DNA of 64,000 bases, from positions 3,472,001 to 3,536,000 of the forward strand of contig NZ_CP018620.1 in NCBI RefSeq assembly GCF_001908275.1, in the 5' to 3' direction. The notes below the pieces were generated by a model. The model saw nothing but the letters and a program-made list of their open reading frames with translations. It searched no databases and was not told the origin of the DNA. Below are positions 29,580 through 50,321 of this stretch, one piece after another (the stretch's first letter is position 1; every line of letters begins with the position of its first letter). Origin of the DNA: Paenibacillus xylanexedens. Lineage in GTDB: Bacteria > Bacillota > Bacilli > Paenibacillales > Paenibacillaceae. Made by a program: the position numbers and the translations under genes.

Positions 29580-29624
29580 TTGAAAGGAGAAATGTTTACG
29601 AAGTTCGTAGATATGATGTTAGGC
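29580..29624 (+). other. attI-like insertion platform with leader ORF
   Basis: The first recombination core is GTTAGGC at 29618-29624. GTTAGGCGAA here is the exact complement of the left core TTCGCCTAAC of the first attC-like site, as expected for the 5' end of the first cassette. Upstream, GAAAGGAG and ATG 29592 open a short frame that runs in phase through the core into the first cassette gene. This resembles the ORF-11 arrangement in attI1 of class 1 integrons. Whether it is a true attI or a relic attC right arm is open. Confidence 0.55.
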
Positions 29625-29654
29625 GAAATTACCTGTAAGATTAGGAGGTTTATT

Positions 29655-29978
29655 ATGTCAAACCTTAATTTGGAATTGCGTTTAGAGAAAATGAATTGGA
29701 GTTCCAATTATTCAAAACGAGAAATCACACCTTCTCAAAAATATAAGTTTGAAAATATTCGGTTAACTGAGAGTATGATTGATGATTTACATACACTAAT
29801 TCTTCAAATTAAAGAGGATTGGATGACTTTAAAAGTCAGTATAGTAGGAGAAAATTATTACATCTATATTACTCTAATCTTTGATGATACTGATCCAGCA
29901 AACGAATTAGATAGAACTCTTAATAGAGTAAAGAAGCATGCGAGTCATATTTTAAGGATTTACAAGAATTGGGTTTAA
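29655..29978 (+). CDS. Cassette gene, hypothetical protein 107 aa
   Basis: ATG 29655 with TTAGGAGG eight bases upstream; the in-frame leader ORF from 29580 runs into it. The product is a small alpha/beta protein, rich in Lys, Ile and Asn, without signal or membrane segment. It overlaps the next gene by 10 bases and shares its cassette, so the two products probably act together. No family recognised. Confidence 0.65.
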   Translation: MSNLNLELRLEKMNWSSNYSKREITPSQKYKFENIRLTESMIDDLHTLILQIKEDWMTLKVSIVGENYYIYITLIFDDTDPANELDRTLNRVKKHASHILRIYKNWV

Positions 29979-30493
29979 AAACAACCTCAAATAATTTTGA
30001 TTTATTGAATGAAATAATGAATGAAGATGGGTTCGTGTTTAAAGCGCATCAAATTGAAGAATGGGGAGTAGCGGAAGAAATAAAGCAGCTATTGGCTACT
30101 CAAAATCAAGACTTTAAGGTCATACAGCATTATCAGTCGAGATTTGATGGAGGATTATCTGGAGGAGCCGAAGACTTTTTGTTTTTCATCGGCAGCTCAG
30201 TTTTATCAGGAGTTACTTGGGATGTTTTGAAAGGGATCTTGGCTAGTAAATTTGAAGATGAACGTACAAACATTAAAAGTACTTCTATAAATAATGAAAA
30301 ATTTAAAGAACTTAGAAGAGAGGTAGCTGAAAGAACAAGAGAAGATTATAGAGAATTAGTACTGACTGATTTTTATAAGAACGAGAATGAGCTTATCTGT
30401 GAATTTAAAATTTATGAACCTACTATGAAAACAATAATGATTTTATGTGATCTAGAGTACCAAATTAAAGAATTAAAGTATGAAAGAAAGTAA
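29969..30493 (+). CDS. Cassette gene, hypothetical protein 174 aa with hydrophobic Gly-rich segment
   Basis: Starts at TTG 29969 (weak RBS) overlapping the previous gene, or at ATG 30017. Residues about 60-85 (GGLSGGAEDFLFFIGSSVLSG) are Gly-rich and hydrophobic, followed by a charged helical part. The two-gene overlapping cassette is the layout of toxin/antitoxin or effector/immunity pairs, but nothing in the sequence proves that. Its stop lies 5 bases before the left core of attC-1. Confidence 0.6.
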   Translation: MGLKTTSNNFDLLNEIMNEDGFVFKAHQIEEWGVAEEIKQLLATQNQDFKVIQHYQSRFDGGLSGGAEDFLFFIGSSVLSGVTWDVLKGILASKFEDERTNIKSTSINNEKFKELRREVAERTREDYRELVLTDFYKNENELICEFKIYEPTMKTIMILCDLEYQIKELKYERK

Positions 30494-30497
30494 CTTC

Positions 30498-30593
30498 GCC
30501 TAACATAATATTCACGCTGCGGGCATCCGCCCTTGGTCCGGCAGGAGCCGGACACCCAGCATACGCTGGGTCGTGAATACAGGAACGTTATCC
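30498..30593 (+). repeat. attC-1, cassette recombination site, 96 bp
   Basis: Left core GCCTAAC, inner stem TATTCACG/CGTGAATA, right core GTTATCC. Between the inner stems are three hairpins (GCGGGCATCCGC; GTCCGGC-AGGA-GCCGGAC; CCCAGC-ATAC-GCTGGG), giving a cloverleaf-like fold. Short class. Right core complements the left core of attC-2 exactly. Confidence 0.85.
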
Positions 30594-30667
30594 GAAAAAA
30601 CTTAAATCCTTATTAATAACAAAAGTGAAGCGAAAGCTATATCAGCTTGGATTAGGAGCAGAAGATT

Positions 30668-31639
30668 ATGATGTGGATTGAAATGTCAACAGACGAAACA
30701 CATGGAGGAAAAGGATGGGGATTTTCTCAATGTCTATGGTCTCCAGCATATAAGATCGTTAAGAACTCTAGAAGACCTTGGCCGTATTGGAATAGCTTGA
30801 TACGTGTTAAAGAGGGAGACGTTATTTTACATCTTAAAGGTAATGCAGAGCCTGGATTTGTAGGATATTCTATTGCTGAAGCTGATGGCTTTGTTACAGA
30901 TCTCAGACCGCCTAATCCCGGAAGCCAATGGGATTAGGCAGAAAAGTTTAACAGAGTAAATTTAAAAGACTTTGAATTATTTACTGAAAAAATTTTGCTC
31001 AGTAAATTATTCAGTCAAAAGGAAAGTCAGCTTAGATACTATTTCAATATAAATAAAATCAAGAAAGGCAATGAAAAAAAACTTTTGTTTTATGTAGTTC
31101 AAAACGATAGTTTACGTAGGCAGAATGGAGCTTATTTGTCAGAGTTAGATAGGATATTAAGTGATATTCTATTTGATGAAATTACAAGCTATACAAACGT
31201 TAAAGAAACTAATATCAGAAAACAGGTAAAAGCATATGAAAGTCAATCAAGTTTAGCAATTCGAATCGGACAAAATGAATTTTCGAAAAATGTTAAAGAA
31301 AACTTTCACAATAAATGTTGCTTTCCTAGTTGCGAAATTAGCGATAAAAACTTTTTGATAGGGTCACATATAGCACGATGGTCGGACAGACCGGAATTAA
31401 GAGGAGAAATAGATAACGGTTTGTGTCTTTGTTTAATGCACGATAAAGCTTTTGAAATGGGCTTATTTACTTTAGATATTGATTTGCTAGTATCAATAAA
31501 TACTGAGCGCTTAGCCAATTATGGTAATCCAATAAATCGAATAAAAGAATTTAATGGTTATCCTATCAAGCAAGCGCAAACATGCGTTAACACTGATTAT
31601 TTAGAACATCACTGGATAAGAATTGGTTTTAGACCTTGA
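30668..31639 (+). pseudogene. Cassette gene: EVE/PUA-like domain fused to HNH endonuclease, split by an in-frame TAG
   Basis: Two frames in the same phase (30668-30937 and 30995-31639) are separated by one TAG at 30935-30937, in a context (GSQWD-stop-AEKFNRVNL) where a Tyr or Phe codon is expected. The first part (WIEMSTDETHGGKGWGFSQC, then GDVILHLKG) looks like an EVE/PUA-fold modified-base reader. The second has CCFPSCEISD, GSHIARW and NGLCLCLMHDKAFE-GLF, the zinc-stabilised HNH nuclease core. Fusions of this kind are seen in modification-dependent restriction. Unless the stop is read through, the full enzyme is not made, though the second part could start internally. Confidence 0.7.
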
Positions 31640-31678
31640 ACATAGAAGTATAGCGGTTTCAAAGAAGCCTGTTTCTTC

Positions 31679-31774
31679 GGATAACATAATATTCACGCTG
31701 CGAGAATTCGCTCTTGGTCCGGCTTTCGCCGGACACCCGACATACGTCGGGTCGTGAATACAGGAACGTTATAG
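31679..31774 (+). repeat. attC-2, 96 bp
   Basis: Left core GGATAAC, inner stem TATTCACG/CGTGAATA, right core GTTATAG. Same three-hairpin plan as attC-1, with compensating changes (third hairpin CCCGAC-ATAC-GTCGGG). Right core plus flank complements TCCTATAAC of attC-3. Confidence 0.88.
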
Positions 31775-31830
31775 GAAATCAGCTAAAATTCAAGAAAGTA
31801 AAACATTTATTATCGAAGGAGCTTGTATAT

Positions 31831-32703
31831 ATGAACTCTAATTATGTTCGACGCATTCAAGAAGTTTACTCAGATTTACATATTCAAGATGTTAAACAAA
31901 ACGAGATCGGTCAGAATAATGACGTATTTATTCTTAATCAATCTCTTGTCTTTAGGTTTCCTAAGTATAAGCAAGGATTAGAAAAATTAAAGCTTGAAAC
32001 AGAGTTATTAGAAACTATTAGAAAGACTGTAACAATGCAGATTCCCTATCCAGCCTACAAATCATTTGATGAGCTGGAGGTGGGTAAGACTTTCATGGGC
32101 TATAAGCTGATTGAAGGCACTCCTTTTTGGAAGGAAGAATTAATAACTATTAAAAGCCAAAACCTTATAGAAACAATTGCCTCACAACTTGTTACTTTTC
32201 TTATTGAACTCCATTCTATGGACATACCGAAAGCGGTAGTTCCTCAGAAACAACATGAAAGTGTACATAGAATTATAGAAGATCTGTTTATTAATATAAA
32301 AGAGAAACTCTTTACATTTATGCGATTAGATGCACAAGAAAAAGTAGTAGATAACTTTAATACATTCTTAAATAATACTCATAATCAGAATTTAGAGAAA
32401 ACCTTTATTCATGGAGACTTCGGAGCAGGCAATATCATATGGAATCGAAAAGATAAAAGAATTACAGGAGTTATTGACTTCGGAGGCTCAGGACTTGGGG
32501 ACCCAGCATATGATTTAGCAGGAATTCTTTCCAGCTACGGAGAAGAGTTTTTTGAAACATGCACTAATCTATACCCGAATGGAAGACAAATTTCAGAAAG
32601 AGCCCATTTTTATAGAAGCACCTTTGCTTTACAGGAAGCTCTACATGGAATAGATCATAATGACCCAGAAGCTTTTGAAGATGGAATTAAAGAATTTAGA
32701 TAG
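31831..32703 (+). CDS. Cassette gene: aminoglycoside phosphotransferase (APH) family kinase
   Basis: 290 residues from ATG 31831 (GAAGGAG upstream); the long frame from 31714 begins inside attC-2. APH/choline-kinase fold: FIHGDFGAGNIIW (His194, Asp196) and GVIDFGGSGLGDPAYDLA (Asp216), with GQNNDVF as nucleotide loop. It resembles the APH(2'') and related group. Substrate could be an aminoglycoside or another small molecule; resistance is possible but not shown. Confidence 0.85.
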   Translation: MNSNYVRRIQEVYSDLHIQDVKQNEIGQNNDVFILNQSLVFRFPKYKQGLEKLKLETELLETIRKTVTMQIPYPAYKSFDELEVGKTFMGYKLIEGTPFWKEELITIKSQNLIETIASQLVTFLIELHSMDIPKAVVPQKQHESVHRIIEDLFINIKEKLFTFMRLDAQEKVVDNFNTFLNNTHNQNLEKTFIHGDFGAGNIIWNRKDKRITGVIDFGGSGLGDPAYDLAGILSSYGEEFFETCTNLYPNGRQISERAHFYRSTFALQEALHGIDHNDPEAFEDGIKEFR

Positions 32704-32785
32704 AACAACTTAATTAATTATTCGTATTAGTGAATAACTTAGTGAAAGTGATTAATATTTAGTGTTTCAAAGAAGAGCTGACATC

Positions 32786-32932
32786 CTATAACACCATATT
32801 CGAACTGCGGTCCATACGGCCCTTGATCTGCCAGAAGTATGTTCGAGAAGAGTAATAAGGCAGATACATCCATTCCCCTAAGATAAGAGCTATCTAAAGG
32901 GAATGGACGTCGTGAATACAGGAACGTTATAC
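32786..32932 (+). repeat. attC-3, 147 bp
   Basis: Left core CTATAAC, inner left arm ATATTCGAAC, right arm CGTGAATACAGGAAC, right core GTTATAC. Long class with an extra hairpin (CATTCCCCTAAGAT / AAAGGGAATG). Confidence 0.8.
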
Positions 32933-32982
32933 GCAACCACCCAGGAGTAATTGTATGCGGATCAAGGAAGGGGATAAATTGA

Positions 32983-33774: not shown

Positions 33775-33801
33775 CTGTGAGGGGAAATTTAGGCTGGCAT
33801 C

Positions 33802-33916
33802 GCCTAACATAATATTCAAGCAGCGGCCCTTCGGAGCCTTGGTCTGCGAGGTGGATTTCGAAGAGGCATTTCAGCAGACAAGCCCGTTGGGGTTCATGAA
33901 TACAGGAACGTTATCT
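33802..33916 (+). repeat. attC-4, 115 bp
   Basis: Left core GCCTAAC, arm ATATTCAAGCAGCGG, conserved GCCTTGGTCTGC, right arm TTCATGAATACAGGAAC, right core GTTATCT. Right core and flank complement GTCAGATAAC of attC-5 over 10 bases. Confidence 0.85.
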
Positions 33917-33947
33917 GACATTAACCTATTACATTTAGGAGCAAATA

Positions 33948-34667
33948 ATGAAGATCACTTTCTCGAAATGGGTTCAATATTATCGAAGAAATAATCAAAA
34001 TCTCAAATATATTCATTGGGATGACAACTATAAATTAACAACTAATGAAAGAGAAATAATCATTAAGTCACTTCAACAGTTTCAATTAGGAGAAAACTCT
34101 GAAGGTAAACATCTAATTAAACGTGCGCAAGAATATGTACATCAGACACAAGATCAGGATTACTATGAAGCGCTTATAGAATTTATTAAAGAAGAACAGA
34201 GGCACGCTAGAGATCTAGGCAGATTTATGAAGGTACAGGGAATTCCACTCCTTCGCAGACATTGGGTGGACAATGTATTTAGAAGATTACGTCGATATGC
34301 GAGTCTAGAACAATCAGTCATTGTTCTATTAACTGCTGAGATCATTGCTAAGTTGTACTATAAAGCCTTGCAAAAATCTACAAAGTCAGAAGTATTAATA
34401 GATATATGTAATCAGATTTTAAGTGATGAGGAGAAACATGTTCAGTTTCAATCTGAAACACTTCATGAATTTGCTCAAAATAGAAGCGTTTTCTCTAACA
34501 GAATAGTTTATATCCTTCGTAGAATCCTTTTTGAAGGAACGCTAATTATCGTGTGGTATCAACATAAGCGTGTATTTAAAGCTGGGGGATATAAACTCAA
34601 AAGTTATTACTATGAATGCCGTCATGAGTTTAACTTAACAAAGAAGATTATAGCTAATTCACAGTAG
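33948..34667 (+). CDS. Cassette gene: ferritin-like diiron protein, 239 aa
   Basis: RBS TAGGAGC. Four-helix bundle with two E-x-x-H metal motifs, EEQRHARDL (about residue 84) and DEEKHVQFQ (about 165), plus an intermediate Glu (LLTAEIIAKL). A hydrophobic stretch near residues 197-207 and a Tyr/Lys-rich tail suggest membrane association. Diiron carboxylate enzymes of this kind are oxygenases or desaturase-like; exact role unknown. Confidence 0.75.
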   Translation: MKITFSKWVQYYRRNNQNLKYIHWDDNYKLTTNEREIIIKSLQQFQLGENSEGKHLIKRAQEYVHQTQDQDYYEALIEFIKEEQRHARDLGRFMKVQGIPLLRRHWVDNVFRRLRRYASLEQSVIVLLTAEIIAKLYYKALQKSTKSEVLIDICNQILSDEEKHVQFQSETLHEFAQNRSVFSNRIVYILRRILFEGTLIIVWYQHKRVFKAGGYKLKSYYYECRHEFNLTKKIIANSQ

Positions 34668-34678
34668 AGGTTTACGTC

Positions 34679-34846
34679 AGATAACATTATATCCAAGCTT
34701 TGGGTCCTGACGCTCCCTCGTTCAGCCCGAAGGGAATTGGTAGGGAAGTGGAATCAGGCGGACACATCCGCACCGACTAACCGCATCGCGGTCGCCCCTA
34801 ACGTGACTTAAGTCGGTGGGGCGTCGTGAACACAAGAACGTTATAT
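34679..34846 (+). repeat. attC-5, 168 bp
   Basis: Left core AGATAAC, right arm CGTGAACACAAGAAC, right core GTTATAT. Long class with a GACTAACCG...CTTAAGTCGG outer arm and an inner GCATCGCGGTC hairpin. Confidence 0.83.
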
Positions 34847-34902
34847 GCAATCCCGGAGATCTAAGTTCCAATTGAGGATGAATGTATTAGGAGGGAAGGA
34901 TG

Positions 34903-35307
34903 ATGAATAATGGTATGGCATCATGGCAAGAACTGAAAATAGATTATGAAATTAATCAAATATCTCCCAATATATCAACTAGACTAGAAGATATTGAACG
35001 TATCCCTACGGGGCTTGGAATCAAAATACTCACTATTCTTATTGAATGGGCTTGCCAGCCACAAAATACCCATCCAATTGAAATAGCGAGGAAAAAGATT
35101 AAAACAATTCCTTCTGATTGGCTAATAGAACATCTTCCTAAAGTAGCTAAAACAGCAATTTGTCTTGACGATGAATGGGAGTATCGTAGATTGTTAGAGC
35201 TACTTTCAGAGGCAATTCCAAAATTGCTAGATTGGGGAATTGAATTGGGGATTAATTCTAAAAATGAAGGAATCAAAGAGGCAGCAAATGACTATAAAGA
35301 AAAATAA
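34903..35307 (+). CDS. Cassette gene: hypothetical protein, about 134 aa
   Basis: ATG 34900 or 34903 behind AGGAGGG. Helical, soluble, ends with a charged tail. No motif recognised. The stop TAA lies inside the worn left core of attC-6. Confidence 0.7.
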   Translation: MNNGMASWQELKIDYEINQISPNISTRLEDIERIPTGLGIKILTILIEWACQPQNTHPIEIARKKIKTIPSDWLIEHLPKVAKTAICLDDEWEYRRLLELLSEAIPKLLDWGIELGINSKNEGIKEAANDYKEK

Positions 35308-35388
35308 CAGTTTTGTAGAGTACAATGAAATGAGAATGTAGATTGGAGCCTTAATTCGGTGGGGCGTCGTGAATACAGAACGTTAGAT
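35302..35388 (+). repeat. attC-6, left arm eroded
   Basis: Right arm GGGGCGTCGTGAATACAGAAC and core GTTAGAT are typical, but the left side (AAATAAC, then no TATTCACG) is degraded, so the site is probably inactive. Confidence 0.65.
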
Positions 35389-35448
35389 GAAATCAGCGTA
35401 AAAACAGTATAACAATTCATTATTTTATTTTTGAATAGGAGAGAAACC

Positions 35449-36108
35449 ATGCTGGAGGCAGTCATTTTCGATATGGATGGAACACTATTTCAAACAAACA
35501 AAATTTTAGAATTATCGTTAGAAGAAACATTTACTATCTTAAGGTCTCTAAATGAATGGTCGAGTGAAGCTCCAACCCAAAAATATCGTGAAATAATGGG
35601 AGTTCCTCTACCAGTAGTTTGGGAAACGTTATTACCGAATCATTCAACTGAAATCAGACGAATTGTGGACGAGATCTTCCTAGAGAAGCTAATTGCAAAT
35701 ATTAATAATGGAAATGGCGCCCTATATCCGCATGTCAACGAAATCTTTGATTACTTGAAACTTGGAGGCTATTTCATTTTTATTGCAAGTAATGGACTAA
35801 ACGAATACCTCAATGCCATCGTTAACTGCTACAAATTAGATAAGTGGGTGGCAGAAACTTATAGCATCCAACAAATAGGAACTCAAAATAAGGATGACTT
35901 AGTCGGTCATATTCTTAAAAAACATCACATCAGCAATGCAACTGTGGTTGGGGACAGGATTTCTGATTTCAATGCCGCAAAAAACAATGGGTTGAAGGCT
36001 ATTGGTTGTCGATTTGATTTTGCCCAAGAAGGGGAGCTTGCACAAGCGGATTTTATTATTGACGACTTACTTGAATTAAAAAATATATTTAAACATCAGG
36101 GAAAATAG
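35449..36108 (+). CDS. Cassette gene: HAD-superfamily hydrolase (phosphoglycolate phosphatase-like)
   Basis: 219 residues from ATG 35449 (TAGGAGAG upstream). HAD motif I VIFDMDGTLFQTN (Asp8, Asp10), motif II IFIASNG, motif III Lys region and motif IV VVGDRISDFNAAKNNG are present with a helical cap domain between. Likely a small-molecule phosphatase. Confidence 0.85.
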   Translation: MLEAVIFDMDGTLFQTNKILELSLEETFTILRSLNEWSSEAPTQKYREIMGVPLPVVWETLLPNHSTEIRRIVDEIFLEKLIANINNGNGALYPHVNEIFDYLKLGGYFIFIASNGLNEYLNAIVNCYKLDKWVAETYSIQQIGTQNKDDLVGHILKKHHISNATVVGDRISDFNAAKNNGLKAIGCRFDFAQEGELAQADFIIDDLLELKNIFKHQGK

Positions 36109-36146
36109 AATGATTTTGTAATTATATCGAAGAAGACGCTGAAATC

Positions 36147-36261
36147 CTATAACACCATATTTAAGCTGCGGCTACCCCTTGTTCAAAATGATGTTTTTGG
36201 CAGGGGAGTTGATTCATGTGACAACTTGCTGCGCAAGTTCGTGAATACAAGAACGTTATAC
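36147..36261 (+). repeat. attC-7, 115 bp
   Basis: Left core CTATAAC, arm ATATTTAAGCTGCGGC, hairpin CAACTTGC-TGC-GCAAGTT, right arm CGTGAATACAAGAAC, right core GTTATAC. Confidence 0.82.
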
Positions 36262-36508
36262 GCAACCCCTTAAGAATGTTAAACCATGCAACCAATTAAT
36301 AACAAATAATAAATATAGGTGAAAGAATACATTTACAACGTAGCAGTTGAAAACCAGGATGAACGGAATATTAGAAGGTGTACCATATAACAATAAATTT
36401 TCACATCGTTAGTTATGCTCCTTGGTCATCAAGAGGAATACCAGAGAAGCGGATTCATAATAAAGTGCAAACTAAAGAATATTTCTATTATGCGAGAGAG
36501 AGGATCAA
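36262..36508. other. Decayed cassette remnant without intact gene
   Basis: A piece of cassette following attC-7 with only a 23-codon frame (36319-36390), ending in the half-site attC-8. It looks like a cassette whose gene has been lost. Confidence 0.45.
36385..36470 (+). repeat. attC-8, left half only
   Basis: ATATAAC core followed by AATAAATTTTCACATCG, GCTCCTTGGTC, AAGAGG and AGAAGCGGATTCA; these align base by base with the left half of attC-9. The right arm and core are missing. Confidence 0.6.
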
Positions 36509-37270: not shown

Positions 37271-37342
37271 ACGTAAAGACATATTAAATACATAAAACAC
37301 ACAAGACATATAAGGATGTGGAATCGAAGAAGAAAGGGCAGC

Positions 37343-37503
37343 GTATTACAATACATTTTTGCTTCGTCGCTGACGCTCCTCGGTCTTCAAGAGGGATTTC
37401 GGAGAAGTGGAATCAGGCGACACATACAACCGGCTAAGTGGCAAAGCCACCCGGACCTCCGGTCCTTAAGACGTTTGGACGTCAGAAATGCGCAACGTTA
37501 TAC
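37343..37503 (+). repeat. attC-9, 161 bp
   Basis: Left core GTATTAC (one change from the expected GTATAAC), right core GTTATAC. Long class with GGCTAAGTGG-CAAA-GCCACC and ACCTCCGGTCCTTAAGACG arms; right arm GACGTCAGAAATGCGCAAC is diverged. Confidence 0.75.
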
Positions 37504-37581
37504 GCAATACCCTAAAATTAAGAAGAAACTAAAGAACAATAAAAGAAGAAACATAATAAAACTTAATTGAAGGTGATAATT

Positions 37582-41573: not shown

Positions 41574-42344
41574 ATGATATTAGAAAAAGTTATAAATAAA
41601 ATTACCATACAAAGTGAATATAAGGATTTGGTTGATAAGTATGTGGATCATATTCTTAACGAATTCAAAGATAAGATTCATAGCATTTATATGTGTGGCT
41701 CGATTCCAAAAGGAACGGCTCAACCTTTTAAGTCAGATGCAGACTTTACTATTGTATGTGCAAATCCCAAAGATATTGATTACGAAAGATTGTCAAATAT
41801 CAAAGACAGGCTTTTGGAAGAATATCCATTCGTCACTAAGATGGATACGATCATTTGCTCGATTGATGATGTATTAAGTAGACCGAATGATTGGGGTTTT
41901 TGGATTAAGATCATTTGTGTTTGTATACATGGGGAGGACATTGGTGAAAAAGTACCCCCGATCATAATTTCTCAAGAATTCATTTTAGACTTAAATACAG
42001 ATACCAAGGAGGAAGTAGATCGTGTACATCGATCACTTTCTAATGTTAGTGATCACTCAATGAAAACTAGATATATTAAAGGTTACTCTAAGAGATTAAT
42101 TCGTGCATTATACTCTTTGGTTTTAGAAGATACAGGGGTATGGGAAGATGAAATCATTAAGATGAAGGATGCCATAATAAACTATTGCTCTATTGACGGC
42201 GCCTTAGTTGAGTATCTGTATGCTTGTTACTTGGATAGTAGCAATGTACTTGTTGAAGAGTTTCTGGAAATTGCAGATGAAGTATATCGCTATTTTGAGA
42301 ACGCTTTAAATAAAATGGCCGCTTCCAGAAATTCAGTTGGCTAA
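41574..42344 (+). CDS. Cassette gene: nucleotidyltransferase-fold protein, 256 aa
   Basis: RBS TAGGAGGGG. Polymerase-beta-type nucleotidyltransferase motif CGSIPKGTAQPFKSDADF (Gly42-Ser43, Asp55, Asp57) plus a helical C-terminal domain, the layout of aminoglycoside nucleotidyltransferases and related antitoxin/MNT proteins. Substrate unknown. Its stop codon lies within the left core of attC-15. Confidence 0.82.
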   Translation: MILEKVINKITIQSEYKDLVDKYVDHILNEFKDKIHSIYMCGSIPKGTAQPFKSDADFTIVCANPKDIDYERLSNIKDRLLEEYPFVTKMDTIICSIDDVLSRPNDWGFWIKIICVCIHGEDIGEKVPPIIISQEFILDLNTDTKEEVDRVHRSLSNVSDHSMKTRYIKGYSKRLIRALYSLVLEDTGVWEDEIIKMKDAIINYCSIDGALVEYLYACYLDSSNVLVEEFLEIADEVYRYFENALNKMAASRNSVG

Positions 42345-42432: not shown

Positions 42433-42891
42433 ATGATACTTGGGTTGTATGAAGCACATTTACCAGTAAGTAACTTACATCAATCTATCGAATTTTATTC
42501 TAAATTAGGATTAGAGCTGGCCTGGAGAGATGAAGATACAGCGTTCTTCTGGATTGAAAAAGAAAAGAGTTGGGTCGGTCTATGGCAAGGCAAAGAGCAT
42601 AAAACTTCTTATCATCCATCATTAAGGCATATAGCATTTCGAGTGAGTTATGAAGATCTTAAAGACAGTGTGAAATGGCTTCAATCAATTGAAATAGAGC
42701 CTGTCCCATTTGGAAAAAGAGATTCAATAAATCCATTTGTAAGGCCTAATCAGGGAAATGCTTCAGTCTACTTCAATGATCCAGATGGAAATAGTTTAGA
42801 ATTAATGTGTTTTGTAAGTGTCCCTGAAAACTTAAAGAATATATCCAATAAATTATCAATCGAAGAATGGGAAGACCTTTTGAAGAGATAA
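42433..42891 (+). CDS. Cassette gene: VOC (glyoxalase/dioxygenase-fold) protein
   Basis: 152 residues from ATG 42433 (AAAGGAG upstream); the long frame from 42337 begins in the half-site. Typical VOC start LGLYEAHLPVSNLHQSIEFYSKLGLE, HIAFRV with metal-ligand His, and the end VYFNDPDGNSLELM with ligand Glu. Fosfomycin-resistance enzymes (FosB/FosX type) share this plan, but many VOC proteins do other work. Confidence 0.85.
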   Translation: MILGLYEAHLPVSNLHQSIEFYSKLGLELAWRDEDTAFFWIEKEKSWVGLWQGKEHKTSYHPSLRHIAFRVSYEDLKDSVKWLQSIEIEPVPFGKRDSINPFVRPNQGNASVYFNDPDGNSLELMCFVSVPENLKNISNKLSIEEWEDLLKR

Positions 42892-42935
42892 AAACTAAAG
42901 AATGTATTTGGGGATTTAAAAGAAGTATCAGCATC

Positions 42936-43048
42936 AGATAACATAATATTCAGGCTGCGGCTCCTGCGGAGCCTTGGTCTACCGAATGAAAGCGCTTCAT
43001 AAAAAAATATTAAACTACGTTGAAAGTATGAATACAGAAACGTTAGGG
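42936..43048 (+). repeat. attC-16, 113 bp
   Basis: Left core AGATAAC, arm ATATTCAGGCTGCGGC, hairpin GGCTCCTGCGGAGCC, conserved CCTTGGTCT, right arm ATGAATACAGAAAC, right core GTTAGGG. Confidence 0.82.
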
Positions 43049-43077
43049 GAAATAATTGCTAGTGGAAGGGGATTTAA

Positions 43078-43710
43078 ATGCATATTAGAGGAATAATTCT
43101 TGAAGGATACTCAAATGCCGGGAAGACTTCAGTATTAAAAGCAATTAAACGTTATCAATCACAAGAAGAATCCTCAGAACGGAGCGTAGTTATTCTTGGA
43201 GAACATTATTCTCAAATTTCGAATAATAAACATGGAGAATATGTAAGTCTAACCCGGGAAGGACACATTGAGTTACTTAAAGAGCGGGTTGACATGCTAA
43301 AGAAACTTAACGAATGGGCAATTCAACTTGGTCCTGCATCTAGAGGATCTAGGGGACTATTTTATGTTCTGGAGAGGTTTCACTTAAATCATAGAGCTGC
43401 ATTTGTAGATTCGGATTTGGATGAGATAAATAAAATAGAAGAACAGCTTGAGTCTTTAGGTGCCAGGTGTATTTTGCTTACAATCTCGCCCGAAGTTGTA
43501 GAAGAAAGAATTAAAAGTAGACAACCAGAAGAATGGATCTATAAAACAGAAGAAGAAGTAAGATCGTCGGTAAGTGAATTATTAAGATTCCAAAATGTAT
43601 TAAGACATCAAGCTCAAATCTCAAGAGTTCCAACAATAGAAATCAATACAGATGATAAGAATTGGGATGAGTATGTAAGGGTAATCATGGAGGGCAACGA
43701 CATTGCCTAA
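43078..43710 (+). CDS. Cassette gene: P-loop kinase-like protein, 210 aa
   Basis: RBS GGAAGGGG. Walker A GYSNAGKTS (residues 10-18) right at the N-terminus as in nucleotide and antibiotic kinases, an ERFH motif near 100, and a lid-like Arg-rich stretch EERIKSRQPEEW. Thymidylate-kinase-like or zeta-toxin-like fold; target unknown. Its stop TAA is inside the left core of attC-17. Confidence 0.78.
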   Translation: MHIRGIILEGYSNAGKTSVLKAIKRYQSQEESSERSVVILGEHYSQISNNKHGEYVSLTREGHIELLKERVDMLKKLNEWAIQLGPASRGSRGLFYVLERFHLNHRAAFVDSDLDEINKIEEQLESLGARCILLTISPEVVEERIKSRQPEEWIYKTEEEVRSSVSELLRFQNVLRHQAQISRVPTIEINTDDKNWDEYVRVIMEGNDIA

Positions 43711-43829
43711 CCAGATGTTCAAGCATTGTCGCTAGTGCTCCTTGGTCGGGTAGAAACTATAAACAGAAGAATGTATCCAGCCAGTCGTATCAGGCATTCG
43801 CCAGTCGTCGTGAACACAAAATGTTAGAT
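43705..43829 (+). repeat. attC-17, 125 bp
   Basis: Left core GCCTAAC, conserved CTCCTTGGTC, right arm CGTCGTGAACACAAA, right core GTTAGAT. The right core with flank complements TTCATCTAAC of attC-18 over 10 bases. Confidence 0.83.
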
Positions 43830-43866
43830 GAAATCAGTTAAAATCAAAATCAATATGAGGTGCGTA

Positions 43867-44667
43867 ATGGATCGTAAGATTATTCAAACCGCAAAAGAGA
43901 TAGCAATAAGAATTATTCGCGAAGCAGGTCTAATCTCTAAAGAGAAGTTTGATAACTTTGTTGAACTGAGATCTAAAGATGAATTTGGGGATGTGGTTAC
44001 TGAAGTAGATCATATCTGTGAAGAAATCATTATCAAACAAATACAAGACGTATTTCCAAGTCATCAGATACACAGTGAAGAGGCAGGGCTTATCGGAACT
44101 AAGCACGATTGGTTATGGTTAATTGATCCTTTAGACGGAACTAATAATTTTGCGATTGGTTTACCTGTTTTTACGATATCAATTACCTTAATGTACAAAA
44201 GAGAGCCTGTGCTTGGAGTGGTCTATGAACCTCTAACAGAACGTTTATTTGTATCTGTTATTGGTGAAGGGACAAGCTGCAATAATCGACAAATACAAAT
44301 TAAGAGTAACCCGAATATTTTCAAAGGAAATATAGGTTGGATTCAAGGTCACAGAGTACAAAACGACCCACAAGCAGTAAAACTAAGACAACACATTGAT
44401 ATTAGATTTAAACGAATGTTAAGATTATGGGCTCCAACGCTTCAATGGTGTATGTTGGCCAAAGGAGATATTGATGGAATTGTTCTGTACAATTCTGAAG
44501 GTGATGACTTGTATTCAGGTATCTTAATGGTTAAGGAAGCAGGGGGGCTTGTTATAGATTTTGATGGAAATAAGTTTAACGGAATGAAAGAAGAACCTTA
44601 TTTAATTGCATGTCACCCAGACCACAAAGAAGAATTATTGCAAATTGTAAGAGAAGGATTGAGTTAA
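43867..44667 (+). CDS. Cassette gene: inositol monophosphatase-family phosphatase
   Basis: 266 residues from ATG 43867 (GAGG six bases upstream). Metal-site motifs IHSEEAG (Glu) and WLIDPLDGTNNF are complete. The second signature, normally W-D-x-A-A, is EGDDLYSGILMVKEAGG, close but altered. It may act on inositol phosphates, 3'-phosphoadenosine-5'-phosphate or other sugar phosphates. Confidence 0.85.
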   Translation: MDRKIIQTAKEIAIRIIREAGLISKEKFDNFVELRSKDEFGDVVTEVDHICEEIIIKQIQDVFPSHQIHSEEAGLIGTKHDWLWLIDPLDGTNNFAIGLPVFTISITLMYKREPVLGVVYEPLTERLFVSVIGEGTSCNNRQIQIKSNPNIFKGNIGWIQGHRVQNDPQAVKLRQHIDIRFKRMLRLWAPTLQWCMLAKGDIDGIVLYNSEGDDLYSGILMVKEAGGLVIDFDGNKFNGMKEEPYLIACHPDHKEELLQIVREGLS

Positions 44668-44688
44668 CACCTAGAAGCAACTGACTTC

Positions 44689-44856
44689 ATCTAACATTTT
44701 ATCCACGCTTCGGAGCTTGACAGCTCCTCGGTCCGCGAGAAGCAATCGGCAGGGAAGAGAATTCAGCGGACACATCCGCCCTGACTAACCGTTTCATGGC
44801 CGGACTATTGAGAGTCCTTAAGTCGGTTGGACGTCATGGATGCAGGAACGTTATAC
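44689..44856 (+). repeat. attC-18, 168 bp
   Basis: Left core ATCTAAC, long arms like attC-5 (CTGACTAACCG with CTTAAGTCGG), right arm ACGTCATGGATGCAGGAAC, right core GTTATAC. Confidence 0.82.
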
Positions 44857-44914
44857 GACAATCTCTAATTATATTTATGTGGGCTAAATGCATAGAAGCA
44901 GGGAGGACATATTA

Positions 44915-45376: not shown

Positions 45377-45402
45377 CTTGAGGGATATGAAGAAGATGGG
45401 GC

Positions 45403-45567
45403 TTATAACAACGTATTCACTTCACTCTGCGTGCTAACACCTTAGGTCCGGCCGAAGTTATGATCAGGGAAGTGAACAGCCGGACAACCCTACGAGCCTA
45501 AGTCTGGCGACCCGTTCCCTTCGGTAACTTAAGGCTCTCGAGTCGTGAATAAAGAATAAATTTATTC
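45403..45567 (+). repeat. attC-19, 165 bp, right core mutated
   Basis: Left core TTATAAC, arms GAGCCTAAGTC/ACTTAAGGCTC, right arm CGTGAATAAAGAATAAA. The right core reads TTTATTC instead of GTTATTC, so the cleaved G is lost. Confidence 0.75.
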
Positions 45568-45580
45568 GAAAGATGGTGAA

Positions 45581-46567
45581 ATGATGAGTGTTATAAATAC
45601 TGAATCCGTACAAAACGAAATTATGAAAGATATCGAAACAAAATATGGATGGATTGTACATGCAGTTGAATCAAACTATTTGGGCTATGGTAATTTAAAG
45701 TGGATTATGACAACTAACATCGGGCCCATCTTTGTTAAACAATATTGCAAGATAAGGTATCGACGCGGATTAGATGGGGTTCGAGACGCACTGAAGTATC
45801 AACATCTTATGCATCTTGATGGAATTCCTTGTCAGCCAGTATATAGTTTCAACAGTGAATATATTCATACCACATTTTCCGGCGAGGATTATATGATTTC
45901 TGGTTTTAGCACAGGGAATTTAATAAAAGCAGGGCAATTAAACAGTCTTCAGATGTATAGTCTTGGTGAAGCTACTGGTCGTATGCATATGTGGATGAAA
46001 ACACATATGCCGAAATTACCATACTTACAGTGGGAGTTACCTTCAAAGGCAGAGATGTTTGAAAAGATACAAGCAAATCTAAATGAAATGAAAAAAATGA
46101 CTAATCAAAGATACATAGAAGCTATAGAGAATCAAAGAATTATTCTTAAAGAATTAGATTTGGATATATTTAATGAGTGTGCTAAAGGATGGGCGCATTG
46201 GGATATGCATGTCGACAATTTATTATTTCATGAAGATAGGTTAGAAGATATTTTAGATTTTGATAGACTACACTACGTATATTCAGATTTCGACATTTCT
46301 CGGGCAATACTCTCAAGTGCACTTTTAGATAACGGGAAATTAAATGTTGAGTCAACTAGGGCATATGTTGATGGTTATAGAATTCATACTAATCTTACGA
46401 TAGAACAGTTGGTACTATCGATTAAATTAACTTGGTACAAAGAGTTTAAGTGGGTACATGAAAAGTATAGTCAAGATAAAGCAATGAGTCGGTTTATCGA
46501 GGAAATGATTTGGATAGGGAATGAGTGGGAGAATCTCGAAGAGATATTCACAACTATCTTTAAATAA
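45581..46567 (+). CDS. Cassette gene: APH/CotS-family phosphotransferase
   Basis: 328 residues. Kinase-like APH fold with GWAHWDMHVDNLLF (His206, Asp208, Asn) and EDILDFDRLHYVYSDFDISRAI as second catalytic region. FVKQYCK gives the ATP-binding Lys. Looks closer to the CotS/YtaA and homoserine-kinase-like branch than to typical aminoglycoside kinases. Confidence 0.83.
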   Translation: MMSVINTESVQNEIMKDIETKYGWIVHAVESNYLGYGNLKWIMTTNIGPIFVKQYCKIRYRRGLDGVRDALKYQHLMHLDGIPCQPVYSFNSEYIHTTFSGEDYMISGFSTGNLIKAGQLNSLQMYSLGEATGRMHMWMKTHMPKLPYLQWELPSKAEMFEKIQANLNEMKKMTNQRYIEAIENQRIILKELDLDIFNECAKGWAHWDMHVDNLLFHEDRLEDILDFDRLHYVYSDFDISRAILSSALLDNGKLNVESTRAYVDGYRIHTNLTIEQLVLSIKLTWYKEFKWVHEKYSQDKAMSRFIEEMIWIGNEWENLEEIFTTIFK

Positions 46568-46679
46568 TGATTGTGGGTCAATTCGGACTAGTCAGCGCCA
46601 GCCCTATGAGGTTAAATCCGTCGGACCAGGAGCGATATATCTTACGCCTCTCGGGTTCTTAGATACAGGAATGTTATCG
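46568..46679 (+). repeat. attC-20, left arm eroded
   Basis: Right arm AGATACAGGAAT and core GTTATCG are recognisable. The left part lacks a clear TAAC core; a GAGGTTAAATCCG stretch with CTTACGCCTC resembles the long-class arm. Right core complements TCCGATAGC of attC-21 with one change. Confidence 0.6.
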
Positions 46680-46719
46680 GAAATATTCGTAAACACTTTA
46701 TTTTTTGGGGGCATCAAGG

Positions 46720-47262
46720 ATGAGTAAAAAAACAATAATTATTGAAGATTACAAAAATGAATGGCCTGAAATGTTTTCTGATCTGAAATCCATCATAGAA
46801 CAAAGACTCGGGGATCTAGTACTTAGAATTGAGCACGTTGGTAGTACCGCAATACCTGGACTAGTGGCAAAACCTATTTTAGATATTGATGTAGTAATTG
46901 ATTCTATGGACTTGCTTCCAGATGTAATTCAAGGATTAGAAAGTTTAGGTTACTATTATGAAGGAAATTTGGGTGTTGAGAACAGAGAAGCTTTTGCAAG
47001 AAAAGATGCAAATGTTCCTTATAGTATAGTAAAAATACAGAGACCTGAACATCATTTATATGTTTGTAATAAAGAGAGCAAAGAGTTATTAAGACATATA
47101 TCGTTCAGAGATGCATTAATTAGCAATCCCGAATTTGTAGTCGAATATGGCAATCTAAAGAAAGAACTTGCTATTAAATATGGAGAAAATCGTCAGTCTT
47201 ATACGGAAGGGAAGACCGAATTTGTAAATAAAGTAATTAATGAATATGGAAAAAACTTGTAG
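46720..47262 (+). CDS. Cassette gene: GrpB family protein (UPF0157)
   Basis: 180 residues from ATG 46720. Family signature DYKNEWPEMFSDLKSII, RIEHVGSTAIPGLVAKPILDIDVVI is complete; it is a nucleotidyltransferase-fold protein. GrpB proteins are of uncertain function, with a CoA-biosynthesis link proposed for fusions. Confidence 0.88.
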   Translation: MSKKTIIIEDYKNEWPEMFSDLKSIIEQRLGDLVLRIEHVGSTAIPGLVAKPILDIDVVIDSMDLLPDVIQGLESLGYYYEGNLGVENREAFARKDANVPYSIVKIQRPEHHLYVCNKESKELLRHISFRDALISNPEFVVEYGNLKKELAIKYGENRQSYTEGKTEFVNKVINEYGKNL

Positions 47263-47286
47263 GTTGCTCAATGGGATTAAAACATC

Positions 47287-47328
47287 CGATAGCAAATTAA
47301 CCACGCTGCGGGGTTAACGCCTCTTGGT
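47287..47328 (+). repeat. attC-21, left half only
   Basis: Left core CGATAGC, then TTAACCACGCTGCGGGG and CCTCTTGGT; cut off where the GNAT remnant begins. Confidence 0.6.
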
Positions 47329-47529
47329 AGATCAGGTATAGGTCGTAAAGCAGCAATAGAAGCATTTAAGATGTACAAAGCAAATTGGAAGATTTCGCAA
47401 ATGGAGAGCAATCTTCCGGCAAGGACATTTTGGAGAAGTGTAATAGAAGGTTTTAAAGGAACTAATTACACTGAACACTATGTACAAGATCGAAAAAAAT
47501 ATATACAAGAATTTAGTACAAGAAATTAA
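47329..47529 (+). pseudogene. C-terminal remnant of a GNAT acetyltransferase
   Basis: Open frame RSGIGRKAAIEAFKMYKANW, then ISQMESNLPARTFWRSVIEGF and NYTEHY, which is the acetyl-CoA-binding end of a GNAT protein starting inside its Q/R-x-x-G-x-G/A motif. The N-terminal half is gone and the fragment is joined directly to half-site attC-21, so one deletion removed the right half of the site and the start of the gene. Confidence 0.7.
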
Positions 47530-47563
47530 AAGCATTTAATGAAAACTAATTCAGCACGGCATC

Positions 47564-47658
47564 GTCTACCAACATATTTACCTGCGGACCGGCTGGTACC
47601 TATCCTAGGTCCCCTCGAGGCATTCCAAGGAAGTGGCCCGGCTACGGGGAGGTTATAC
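47564..47658 (+). repeat. attC-22, 95 bp, diverged
   Basis: Left core GTCTACC, ACATATTTACCTGCGGACC, right core GTTATAC; the usual GTGAATACAGGAAC arm is missing. Still, right core and flank complement attC-23 left core and flank over 14 of 16 bases. Confidence 0.65.
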
Positions 47659-47671
47659 GACAGAATCAAAA

Positions 47672-47703
47672 ACAATAGAAAAAGAGGGTCATATAACCCT
47701 CTA
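47672..47703 (-). terminator. Terminator of the minus-strand cassette gene
   Basis: GAGGGT-CATATA-ACCCTC; read on the minus strand it is followed by TTTTTCT. It overlaps the stop codon of the gene. Confidence 0.7.
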
Positions 47704-47988
47704 AATACTAGAATTCTGCAATTCACTAAATAGTTGTAGGGCATCTTTGAAACCTTGTATGTAGATACTTCTTTCTAGGATGGATTGGAGTGAGATTTGT
47801 GCGTCTTCGTAAAGAAAAACTGTATGTTGAAGTTGATCGGGCAAAGCATCACGAAGTGTTTTAAAATATTCATCTGTCTCAGCAGAAAGCTGAGTGAACT
47901 CCCTATGACACTCCAGAAGCTTAGTATAGAGCAAATCTAAACGTATTCTTATCAGTGGTTCTGTTAATGATTCTACAGTATTAATCAT
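47701..47988 (-). CDS. Cassette gene on the minus strand: small helical protein, 95 aa
   Basis: Minus-strand ATG at 47988 with GAAGGAGG upstream and a good promoter (TTGTAA-N17-TATAAT). The product is an all-helical soluble protein rich in Leu, Glu and Asp; it recalls small DUF6809-like proteins but this is a weak impression. It is divergent from an HTH gene and flanked by shared operator repeats, so the HTH protein probably represses it. The only antisense gene in the array. Confidence 0.7.
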   Translation of the reverse strand: MINTVESLTEPLIRIRLDLLYTKLLECHREFTQLSAETDEYFKTLRDALPDQLQHTVFLYEDAQISLQSILERSIYIQGFKDALQLFSELQNSSI

Positions 47989-48006
47989 ATTTAGTTCCTC
48001 CTTCAA

Positions 48007-48364: not shown

Positions 48365-48397
48365 ATAGTGAAGGTCGATTTGAGAAACGATTCCGTC

Positions 48398-48510
48398 CTA
48401 TAACATAATATTCAAACATTGCTCCTTCGGAGCCCGGCACTGCGGATGGATTTCGAGAAGAGTTTCAGCAAACATCCCCTTTGGGGTTCATAAATATAGA
48501 AACGTTGTCC
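48398..48510 (+). repeat. attC-23, 113 bp
   Basis: Left core CTATAAC, arm ATATTCAAACATTG, hairpin GGCTCC-TTC-GGAGCC type (GCTCCTTCGGAGC), right arm ATAAATATAGAAAC, right core GTTGTCC. Confidence 0.8.
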
Positions 48511-48549
48511 AATACCCCCAATCAAAACAACAAGCATAGGAGCAATATT

Positions 48550-48951
48550 ATGACAATCATGTTCAAAGAGGTAAAAGACATTGATACACACGCAATTCAA
48601 GAACTGTTTCACTCGGTGGACTGGAAATCAGGAGATTTCCCAGAAGATCTTAGACAAGCAATAAACAACTCGCATACGGTTATTACTGCATGGGATGATA
48701 CCAAACTAGTTGGCTTAATAAATGCATTGTCTGACAGCGTGATGACAGTATATTTTCATTACATGTTAGTACACAAAGAATATCAATCATTAGGAATTGG
48801 TAAGAGAATGATGGAACAAATGCTTAGTCGATATTCTAATATCAAAACAAAAGTGCTTATATCCTATGATAGTGCAGAAAAATTCTATGAAATATTTGGA
48901 TTTAAGCCAGAAGAAGGAACTAAAGCCATGTTTATTTCAGATATGGTATAG
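48550..48951 (+). CDS. Cassette gene: GNAT-family acetyltransferase, 133 aa
   Basis: ATG 48550 with TAGGAGC upstream; the frame from 48481 starts within attC-23. Motif A VHKEYQSLGIGKRMMEQML (Q-x-x-G-I-G) and the C-terminal SAEKFYEIFGFKP are complete. Short single-domain GNAT, substrate unknown. Confidence 0.87.
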   Translation: MTIMFKEVKDIDTHAIQELFHSVDWKSGDFPEDLRQAINNSHTVITAWDDTKLVGLINALSDSVMTVYFHYMLVHKEYQSLGIGKRMMEQMLSRYSNIKTKVLISYDSAEKFYEIFGFKPEEGTKAMFISDMV

Positions 48952-48986
48952 CATCTTGTTAGTTTATCAAAGAAGTTGGGATCATC

Positions 48987-49035
48987 TGATAACAACACGG
49001 TAATACGTAGGGGCATCGACCCCGTTTGAAGTAAA
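48987..49035 (+). repeat. attC-24, left half only
   Basis: Left core TGATAAC then AACACGGTAATACG and GGGGCATCGACCCC hairpin. No right arm or GTTA core found before the next gene. Confidence 0.55.
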
Positions 49036-49126
49036 GATTCCGATCAGATGAGATTTGATTATAGATGGATTTGTTTTTGAGAAGGTCGCTATATAAAGCT
49101 TCAATTCGGATATGAAGGGATACCAG

Positions 49127-49339
49127 ATGATAAGTTATAAACCATTTCAAAAATTATTGATTGACAGGGAAATCAAGAAGCAGGATTTATTGAAGATGAC
49201 GGGGATTTCATCGGCAACGATGGCAAAACTTAATACGAATGAGTATGTATCGTTAGAAGTAATCGATAAATTATGTACGGCATTGGGATGTCAGCCCGGA
49301 GATCTATTGGAGCATATAGTAGATCCGAAACCAAGTTAA
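49127..49339 (+). CDS. Cassette gene: Xre/Cro-type HTH protein, 70 aa
   Basis: ATG 49127 with GAAGGGA upstream (ATG 49112 is the alternative). KPFQKLLIDREIKKQDLLKMTGISSATMAKLNTNEYVSLEVIDKLCTALGCQPGDLLEH is a complete single-domain YozG-like HTH. No obvious target gene in its cassette. Confidence 0.87.
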   Translation: MISYKPFQKLLIDREIKKQDLLKMTGISSATMAKLNTNEYVSLEVIDKLCTALGCQPGDLLEHIVDPKPS

Positions 49340-49382
49340 AGAAGAAAATAATAAGTTAGTCAATCAGAGAATCGATTCCGCC

Positions 49383-49507
49383 GTATAACATTATATTCAA
49401 ACTATGGCTCTTAACGAAGCCATAGTCTGCTGGAGGTGTATTTTATGGAAGCGCTTCAGCATACATATTTAAAAACGCTGAACGTCGTGAGTACAGGAAC
49501 GTTTTGT
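49383..49507 (+). repeat. attC-25, 125 bp, right core diverged
   Basis: Left core GTATAAC, hairpin CTATGGCTCTTAACGAAGCCATAG, right arm CGTCGTGAGTACAGGAAC, right core GTTTTGT instead of GTTAxxx. Confidence 0.78.
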
Positions 49508-49545
49508 GAGATTATCGCTAATGTTAAAAGCAAGGAGGAATAACG

Positions 49546-49632
49546 GTGAGTCGAAGGCAAACTTTAGCTAGATTTAGAATCAATCTTAAATGTTTTCCAA
49601 GAGATAACCCGAATGTTGGTTTCGAGTGGTGA
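49546..49632 (+). pseudogene. 28-codon frame with strong RBS, probable cassette remnant
   Basis: AAGGAGG precedes a GTG at 49546; the frame ends inside attC-26. Either a very short peptide gene or the 5' end of a gene whose remainder was lost when the mini-site formed. No recognisable motif. Confidence 0.35.
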
Positions 49633-49649
49633 TTACAGAAACGTTATCG
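49602..49649 (+). repeat. attC-26, minimal 48-bp site
   Basis: Left core AGATAAC, right arm GTGATTACAGAAAC, right core GTTATCG, with only about 25 bases between. The branched middle is absent, as after an internal deletion. Confidence 0.6.
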
Positions 49650-49707
49650 TAAAGCTTAGTGAAGGTGTATTTATAAATGATCAAAATCCGATAATTGGAG
49701 GTTACTT

Positions 49708-50265
49708 ATGAGAGCATTCACTGTAGAAGCAGTTTTTATTGATCGTGATGGAACGATCGGTGGTTCAGATGAAGTCCTTTACCCGGGGGAATTTGAATTG
49801 TTTCCGTACACTAAAAAATCTATGGCAAAATTAAAAACACTTGGAATTAAACTGTACGGATTTACGAATCAGCCCGGTATTTCAAGAGGTGAAGCTACAA
49901 AAGAAGCATTTGTAAGAGAAATGATAGAATTTGGCTTTGATAATGTTTTTATATGTCCGCATCAACATACTGAGAGATGTGAGTGCCGTAAACCGAACCC
50001 AGGAATGTTACTTGACGCTGCTAAGAAAAACAATTTAGATTTAAGTAAATGTATTGTAATTGGGGATCGATGGTCTGATATTTTAGCAGGTCATCATGCT
50101 GGATGCAAAAAGATATTAGTTTTGACTGGAGCAGGGAATGAAGCTTTAAATAAATACAGACATAAATGGTCAAACACAGAAGCGGATTTTATTGCAAGTG
50201 ATTTCAAAGAAGCAGTTAATTATATTATTAGTCTGGAAGGAACGATTGAAGCGGGCCTAAGGTAG
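49708..50265 (+). CDS. Cassette gene: HAD-IIIA hydrolase (GmhB/HisB-like)
   Basis: 185 residues, RBS TTGGAGG. Motif I VFIDRDGTIG (Asp12, Asp14), motif II TNQPGISRG, the zinc loop CPHQHTERCECRKPNPG and motif IV VIGDRWSDI are all intact, as in D-glycero-D-manno-heptose bisphosphate and histidinol phosphatases. A stand-alone sugar-phosphate phosphatase is likely. Confidence 0.9.
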   Translation: MRAFTVEAVFIDRDGTIGGSDEVLYPGEFELFPYTKKSMAKLKTLGIKLYGFTNQPGISRGEATKEAFVREMIEFGFDNVFICPHQHTERCECRKPNPGMLLDAAKKNNLDLSKCIVIGDRWSDILAGHHAGCKKILVLTGAGNEALNKYRHKWSNTEADFIASDFKEAVNYIISLEGTIEAGLR

Positions 50266-50321
50266 CAACTAACTAAGATAAGATATATTTTAAAAAAATA
50301 AATATAACAGGAGGAATTAGC

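Follow-up and report, generated by a model that had tools for sequence, protein, structure and literature searches.

The question raised by this stretch of the Paenibacillus xylanexedens chromosome, a window of 64,000 nucleotides (C1:3472001-3536000) in a 7.1 Mb genome of two contigs, is whether its long run of small genes and structured repeats is an integron-type cassette array and, if so, of which lineage. Where the IntegronFinder 2.0 paper treats Firmicutes, it describes integrons as very rare there, with one complete example (Limnochorda pilosa) and a few attC clusters (PMC9024848), and our literature search found no report of integrons in Paenibacillus. A sequence-only reading of the window had proposed an integron-like cassette array with about 26 attC-like sites at 29618..50275. 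It is very likely, in our view, that a sedentary chromosomal array of integron-type cassettes, belonging to its own lineage, lies within the window. The proposal of a cassette array gains support from the complementarity of cassette ends to their own starts, from the linkage of an integrase to attI and attC sites, and from cassettes that vary and recur among relatives.

Between 29618 and about 49656, small genes are interspersed with structured repeats. Sixteen sites (15 from the window and one from a second array of the same genome) served to build a covariance model, which was run unfiltered over positions 28000-52000 and gave 36 matches up to E=10. Eighteen attC-like sites were found at E<=0.001, every one on the plus strand; seven further plus-strand matches (E 0.13-2.2, 9-15 bits) are probably decayed sites, and the remaining 11 (E 2.9-9.8, both strands) were taken as chance. 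Together, the strong and weak sites fit the number first proposed. The proposed start held, since the first array boundary is the G at 29618; the last well-kept R' half lies at 49643. The sites, with covariance model scores, are as follows.

30491..30600, plus strand, attC-like site 1 (102.4 bits)
31672..31781, plus strand, attC-like site 2 (96.1 bits)
32779..32939, plus strand, attC-like site 3 (111.7 bits)
33795..33923, plus strand, attC-like site 4 (117.9 bits)
34672..34853, plus strand, attC-like site 5 (100.6 bits)
35295..35395, plus strand, probably decayed attC-like site, R' half kept (13.2 bits, E 0.27)
36140..36268, plus strand, attC-like site 6 (93.7 bits)
36378..36490, plus strand, probably decayed attC-like site, R'' half kept (13.2 bits, E 0.28)
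37336..37510, plus strand, attC-like site 7 (55.3 bits)
37984..38147, plus strand, attC-like site 8 (93.6 bits)
38731..38840, plus strand, attC-like site 9 (81.5 bits)
39741..39850, plus strand, attC-like site 10 (92.4 bits)
40578..40745, plus strand, attC-like site 11 (85.7 bits)
41380..41549, plus strand, attC-like site 12 (103.4 bits)
42929..43055, plus strand, attC-like site 13 (85.9 bits)
43698..43836, plus strand, attC-like site 14 (47.8 bits)
44682..44863, plus strand, attC-like site 15 (106.9 bits)
45396..45574, plus strand, attC-like site 16, partly decayed (27.5 bits)
46620..47665, plus strand, three probably decayed sites at 46620-46686, 47280-47393 and 47557-47665 (12-15 bits, E 0.13-0.43)
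48391..48517, plus strand, attC-like site 17 (82.1 bits)
48980..49037, plus strand, probably decayed attC-like site (9.1 bits, E 2.2)
49376..49514, plus strand, attC-like site 18 (97.1 bits)
49559..49656, plus strand, last attC-like site, probably decayed, R' half kept (10 bits, E 1.4)

Scoring 150 of the 1006 first-look candidates across the whole genome gave 28 matches at E<=0.001, which were confined to two clusters, the window and C1:2641661-2650401. The attC-like site is therefore not a genome-wide repeat, and repeats of this strength spread away from cassettes were not found among the scored candidates.

Excision of an integron cassette yields a circle, in which the terminal R'' box has to pair with the cassette's own start; in a linear integron array, the neighbour of R'' is instead the start of the following cassette. 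Here, each cassette unit runs from G|TTA to a terminal site, and the outer box of that site is complementary to the unit's own first bases. For each cassette, the five bases that follow GTTA were set against the five that precede TAAC in its end site. In the 15 window cassettes, 56 of 75 bases agreed, against a mean of 36.7 and a maximum of 52 in 100,000 shuffles. A wider comparison drew on 151 of 161 site matches (the ten weakest or reverse ones were dropped, and the single minus-strand match among the 161 overlapped a plus-strand one) and on pairs that had both GTT and AAC and lay 100-3500 bases apart. It covered 112 cassettes of 19 sequences, namely the window, the second array L009 and 17 integrase loci: 500 of 560 bases agreed and 78 cassettes were perfect, whereas 20,000 shuffles gave a mean of 319 (standard deviation 8.5, maximum 354; z=21) and 4.7 perfect cassettes (maximum 14). 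When the halves of a single linear site were compared with each other, they agreed at 368 of 645 bases and were perfect in 7 of 129 cases. The same pattern was present in 67 cassettes of eight distant loci, seven from five other Paenibacillaceae genera and one, L190, from another family (78 of 89 matches used): 321 of 335 bases agreed and 57 cassettes were perfect, where 6 were expected (at most 14). Circular cassettes require such complementarity to their own start, and we take this comparison as the decisive one.

The site plan first described, with R-box, spacer and L-box, was borne out in an alignment, fitted to the structure model, of the 150 best sites among these 161 matches. The outer boxes are R'' NNNTAAC and R' GTTANNN, which form an R stem of 4 bp (TAAC/GTTA), and the spacers are 4 nt (147/150) and 7 nt long (139/150). 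The L stem is 8 bp, with its seventh pair unpaired in 55 of the 150 sites and an extra base absent in 148. Double changes in paired columns numbered 55 cells versus 10.6 in shuffles, all within the L stem. When folded, presumed circle junctions reached a mean of -24.5 kcal/mol versus -21.1 for linear sites and -20.9 for random starts (n=306); 235 junctions folded better than their linear site and 50 folded less well (Wilcoxon p 5e-36).

A conserved motif that resembles the attI found beside integrases elsewhere opens the array, with a promoter-like sequence shortly before it.

29531..29559, plus strand, promoter-like sequence that could drive the first cassettes (weak, by consensus match only: 1 versus 1.9 expected in shuffles)
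29595..29618, plus strand, attI-like site at the head of the window array, TTTACGAAGTTCGTAGATATGAT followed by G|TTA

We infer that the crossover point lies after the G at 29618. Within four substitutions, TTTACGAAGTTCGTAGATATGAT|GTTA was present in 16/16 sequences of the window's chromosomal place, the window included, and the best own start fell exactly at this attI in 14 of them (it is decayed in L163 and L173). At the integrase side, the motif TTTACGAAGTACATAAATTAGAT|GTTA, or a near variant of it, immediately precedes the matching first cassette in 18/19 sequences, tied for best in two; in the nineteenth (L093) it is decayed. An IntI-model search of the genome found no integrase beside the window's attI. 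The window accordingly has two or more attC sites without a neighbouring integrase, as in a CALIN (a cluster of attC sites lacking an integrase), but an attI is present. Separately, the promoter-like stretch (29529-29564) nearly recurs at 50940-50977, after the array and before a DinB-like gene (identity in 32 of 38 columns), which may be a relic of the event that placed the array.

The second array, 861 kb away, adjoins a broken integrase. Among the best places of the IntI model in this genome are open-frame pieces of a tyrosine recombinase, whose named relatives are in Paenibacillus, at C1:2639796-2640766; downstream of them come an attI-like motif, a first cassette and attC sites, all with the same orientation. 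Related species have intact integrases that precede a conserved attI and attC sites in that same arrangement. Neither an intact copy of this linked integrase nor an IntI over the curated cut-off was found in this genome. At 16 integrase loci with flanks (L091, on a short contig, was omitted and L095 had no match), 126 attC matches lay downstream of the integrase and one upstream, and the integrase was codirectional with the cassettes in the 16 and 8 loci counted. The sole upstream site (L099, 2707-2881) precedes an integrase remnant by about 7 kb. The N-terminal piece of the integrase was matched in 47 of the 75 genus genomes; many of these matches have long open frames, and several carry stops. 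Of six such matches compared, the one in L072 has a deviating end. R224, K249, H314, R317, H340 and Y349 were invariant in 38 aligned integrase sequences and are taken as the catalytic set.

By insertion, model score and tree position, the linked integrase stands apart from IntI. The interval from the K box to HxLRH is 59-60 residues in 21/21 linked integrases versus 100 in the 11 of 18 IntI in which it was measurable; by this interval, the linked integrase lacks the 41-residue IntI-specific insertion (I2, near patch III). Three intact integrases scored 209.6, 202.9 and 206.7 bits against TIGR02249 (IntI), below its cut-off of 265, and their best NCBIfam match was NF040815 (XerA), with 225.8, 216.2 and 218.6 bits against a cut-off of 220, which one of the three exceeded. 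Foldseek placed the IntI of Vibrio (2a3v) first, and the best VIA Z was 22.1, to 4a8e. In a tree with long branches and three Xer as outgroup, the linked integrases fell outside the IntI clade, with support of 100/99 for IntI and only 71/83 for the other group. The N-terminal domain of about 90 residues shows a weak likeness to HARP (Pfam PF07443, cut-off 25). Judged on these sequence features, the linked integrase does not belong to the IntI family, and the suggestion of an undescribed integron lineage is upheld, albeit on a different ground from the one first given. We judge that the system would work like an integron, yet its integrase falls outside IntI. NCBI names several linked integrases 'site-specific tyrosine recombinase/integron integrase', the title of NF040815, despite the lack of an IntI domain. 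One distant locus, L187, carries a second, shorter recombinase (285 codons, no N-terminal domain) about 3 kb away on the opposite strand.

We then compared the window's chromosomal place in 15 species-level relatives (L160-L174; flanks 92-97% identical). Their arrays share some cassettes with one another, partly in the same order, with different ones between, so that the fixed gene order expected of a static array was not seen and cassette differences of the predicted kind were. When 306 cassettes were cut, they gave 40 strict clusters, one of which had 8 different neighbour pairs, and 7 clusters were common to integrase-bearing and window-type arrays of different species.

The site model, searched in related Paenibacillus genomes as had been proposed, was positive in 74/75 at E<=0.001. 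At E<=1e-5, it found sites in 207 of 295 Paenibacillaceae genomes (16/19 genera) and in 4 of 299 Bacillota genomes, two of which are Paenibacillus; this phylum-wide sample doubles as a specificity control. Sites per genome are lower bounds, as at most 39 (genus), ten (family) and nine (phylum) candidates per genome were scored. Integrase matches at E<=1e-60, some of which span only the part without the N-terminal domain, occurred in 91/295 family genomes and in 21/299 phylum genomes from 17/214 genera, and model-found sites were present at 9 of 18 distant loci. A true IntI over the cut-off was found in one of the 299 Bacillota genomes. It lies on a 4.2 kb contig (G445 contig 122; L175, L202) that could be contamination.

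The window cassettes carry genes of typical accessory functions (HNH, APH-type kinases, HAD, GNAT, NUDIX, GrpB, peptidase S51 and others), identified by Pfam scan.

30995..31639, plus strand, HNH_2 endonuclease domain gene
31831..32703, plus strand, APH-type phosphotransferase fold gene
33948..34667, plus strand, ferritin-like gene (below cut-off)
35449..36108, plus strand, HAD hydrolase gene
39912..40529, plus strand, peptidase S51 gene
40829..41338, plus strand, DUF1572 / DinB-like gene
41574..42344, plus strand, nucleotidyltransferase gene
42433..42891, plus strand, glyoxalase superfamily gene
43078..43710, plus strand, AAA_18-like gene (below cut-off)
43867..44667, plus strand, inositol monophosphatase family gene
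45581..46567, plus strand, APH-type phosphotransferase fold gene
46720..47262, plus strand, GrpB gene
47701..48006, minus strand, DUF6809 cassette gene (below cut-off)
48550..48951, plus strand, GNAT acetyltransferase gene
49708..50265, plus strand, HAD-like hydrolase gene past the last site, a terminal cassette or flank

Five of the 29 scanned proteins, flanks included, were without a Pfam match, sub-cut-off ones set aside, and none was found at E<=0.001 for the proteins at 29655, 30668, 32983, 34900, 36509, 37582 and 38982. In the 306 cassettes, the longest open reading frame was on the plus strand in 283 and on the minus strand in 20. By eye, the reading frame of the NUDIX cassette (44915-45378) appears interrupted. 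Two small HTH_26 regulators lie in separate cassettes (48143-48364 and 49127-49339), one of them beside a reverse-strand gene. A piece of a group II intron (37064-37239; Rfam RF02001, 67.4 bits) lies between the decayed half-site at 36378 and the attC-like site at 37336; certain group IIC introns target attC sites.

How might such a system work? Cassettes would be cut out as circles and re-inserted by the linked recombinase, acting on the folded single strand of the site, and the N-terminal HARP-like domain would be the leading candidate for recognising that fold. Extrahelical bases on the R''-L'' arm are given as a feature of folded integron attC in the pertinent part of PMC2727003. Lacking both the I2 insertion and an extrahelical base in the L stem, the Paenibacillus system should differ from classical integrons in how sites are recognised. 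Having an attI but no integrase, the window array would have relied on the other array's integrase acting in trans; such action is suggested by the second attI and by the cassettes shared in different species. With that enzyme broken in this genome, where no intact copy turned up, the window array is probably frozen at present.

Several observations weigh against this reading. The evidence is sequence comparison throughout, for excision, insertion and circles alike, and it is linkage that suggests an action of the integrase on the attC-like sites. The second attI and the shared cassettes could also fit an integrase that once stood beside the window array. The N-terminal piece of the integrase was without a match in 28 of the 75 genus genomes, and the HARP match was weak in each single test (E 8e-4, 0.046 and 0.043). 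Of the 238 folded sites with both cores, 132 had the L stem in the minimum-energy bottom-strand fold of the linear site and 153 in that of the circle junction; for the window the figures were 3/12 and 4/12, and these counts do not support spontaneous folding of every site. Cassette boundaries were checked in 21 full-length pairs of at least 80% identity, 9 of them across array kinds. Alignments started within one base of the predicted boundary in 2 pairs, 12-18 bases before it, in the conserved R' half, in 10, and further out in 9; they ended 3-11 bases past the boundary in 10, stopped at least 20 bases short in 7 and ran on for at least 20 in 4. Cassettes shared with another window-type array made up 28/63 in the first third and 33/54 in the last, and insertion preferentially at the attI end is weakly suggested. 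Finally, beyond Paenibacillaceae, clear arrays were seen in L190 only; L189 and L195, from two further families, have similar sites by eye or by weak scores, and no sites were found in the 3-9 kb searched downstream at L187, L191 and L194.

The alternative that best survives these data, although we hold it to be unlikely, is that a once-working integron lineage is now mostly vestigial in Paenibacillus, its arrays changing mainly by homologous recombination between sites and by decay. The broken integrase, the genus genomes without a match to its N-terminal piece, the several matches with stops and the roughly seven decayed window sites are what it would lead one to expect. Many species nevertheless keep open frames with invariant catalytic residues, cassettes differ among relatives, and the complementarities are mostly perfect (78/112 and 57/67), when they would be expected to decay if unused. 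A classical IntI integron or CALIN from Gram-negative bacteria, whose true IntI was later lost, appears very improbable: the site plan and the cassette rule do match integrons, and a true IntI occurs in one sampled Bacillota genome, but this genome has none over the curated cut-off, all 21 linked integrases lack the insertion found in every measurable IntI, the tree separates the two groups, the extra base is absent from nearly all L stems, and arrays in 207 of the 295 family genomes are not sporadic. That the repeats are ordinary ones (structured intergenic elements or terminators) gathered by homologous recombination or transposition, with no site-specific exchange, is hardly credible, for while they do alternate with genes, some are decayed and many form no L stem in minimum-energy folds, they occur at E<=0.001 in two arrays only among the genome candidates scored and in a single orientation, match their own cassettes at z=21, and follow an integrase and attI in related species.

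An integron-type array of its own lineage can be set beside known systems. Sedentary chromosomal IntI integrons (Vibrio, Xanthomonas) likewise have an integrase gene, an attI and a long one-direction array of small-gene cassettes, with R''/R' boxes ending in AAC/GTT, an unpaired central spacer, a variable end, a G|TT boundary and own-cassette complementarity. Unlike them, the Paenibacillus system has an integrase without the IntI-specific domain but with an N-terminal HARP-like one, spacers of 4 and 7 nt, an L stem without an extra base, an integrase codirectional with the cassettes, and a second attI without integrase elsewhere in the chromosome; the classical layout has the integrase transcribed away from the cassettes, unlike the loci counted. 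XerA-type recombinases (NF040815; 4a8e, 5hxy) share the best NCBIfam match, the best VIA Z and the absence of the IntI insertion, but the Paenibacillus integrase has the extra domain of about 90 residues and is linked to attI/attC arrays. XerA acts on dif sites. In Treponema integrons, the integrase is codirectional with the cassettes, as in the Paenibacillus arrays, but the integrases are described as IntI (PMC3607928), whereas the Paenibacillus one lacks the IntI insertion and scores below the IntI cut-off. As in CALIN, in the part of PMC9024848 that describes them, the window array has no adjoining integrase; it differs in starting at an attI-like site conserved in 16/16 sequences and in having sites that go with a non-IntI integrase.

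In the sections of PMC7790495 concerned with it, the I2 domain is held necessary for cassette capture, confers single-strand recombination and is found in no other protein. IntegronFinder, in the relevant part of PMC9668308, identifies the integrase by this domain and, relying on it, would miss the Paenibacillus-type integrase. We judge the system an integron lineage for which we found no earlier report, with cassette recombination apparently without I2. Should folded sites indeed be recombined without I2, current thinking on the origin of integrons is incomplete or gains a natural test case. We lean slightly towards a broader view, in which Bacillota have their own integron lineage, with folded single-stranded sites recombined by an enzyme that never had I2, a structure-recognising HARP-like N-terminal domain and spacer asymmetry choosing the strand, and one integrase for two attI platforms; if true, either the integron was invented twice or this lineage has survived from a time before the gain of I2. 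By its predicted workings, the system is a genus-wide means of collecting and shuffling genes in Paenibacillus and relatives, integron-like in build but with a different integrase, and, if this is so, a large reservoir of mobile genes in these bacteria has been overlooked.

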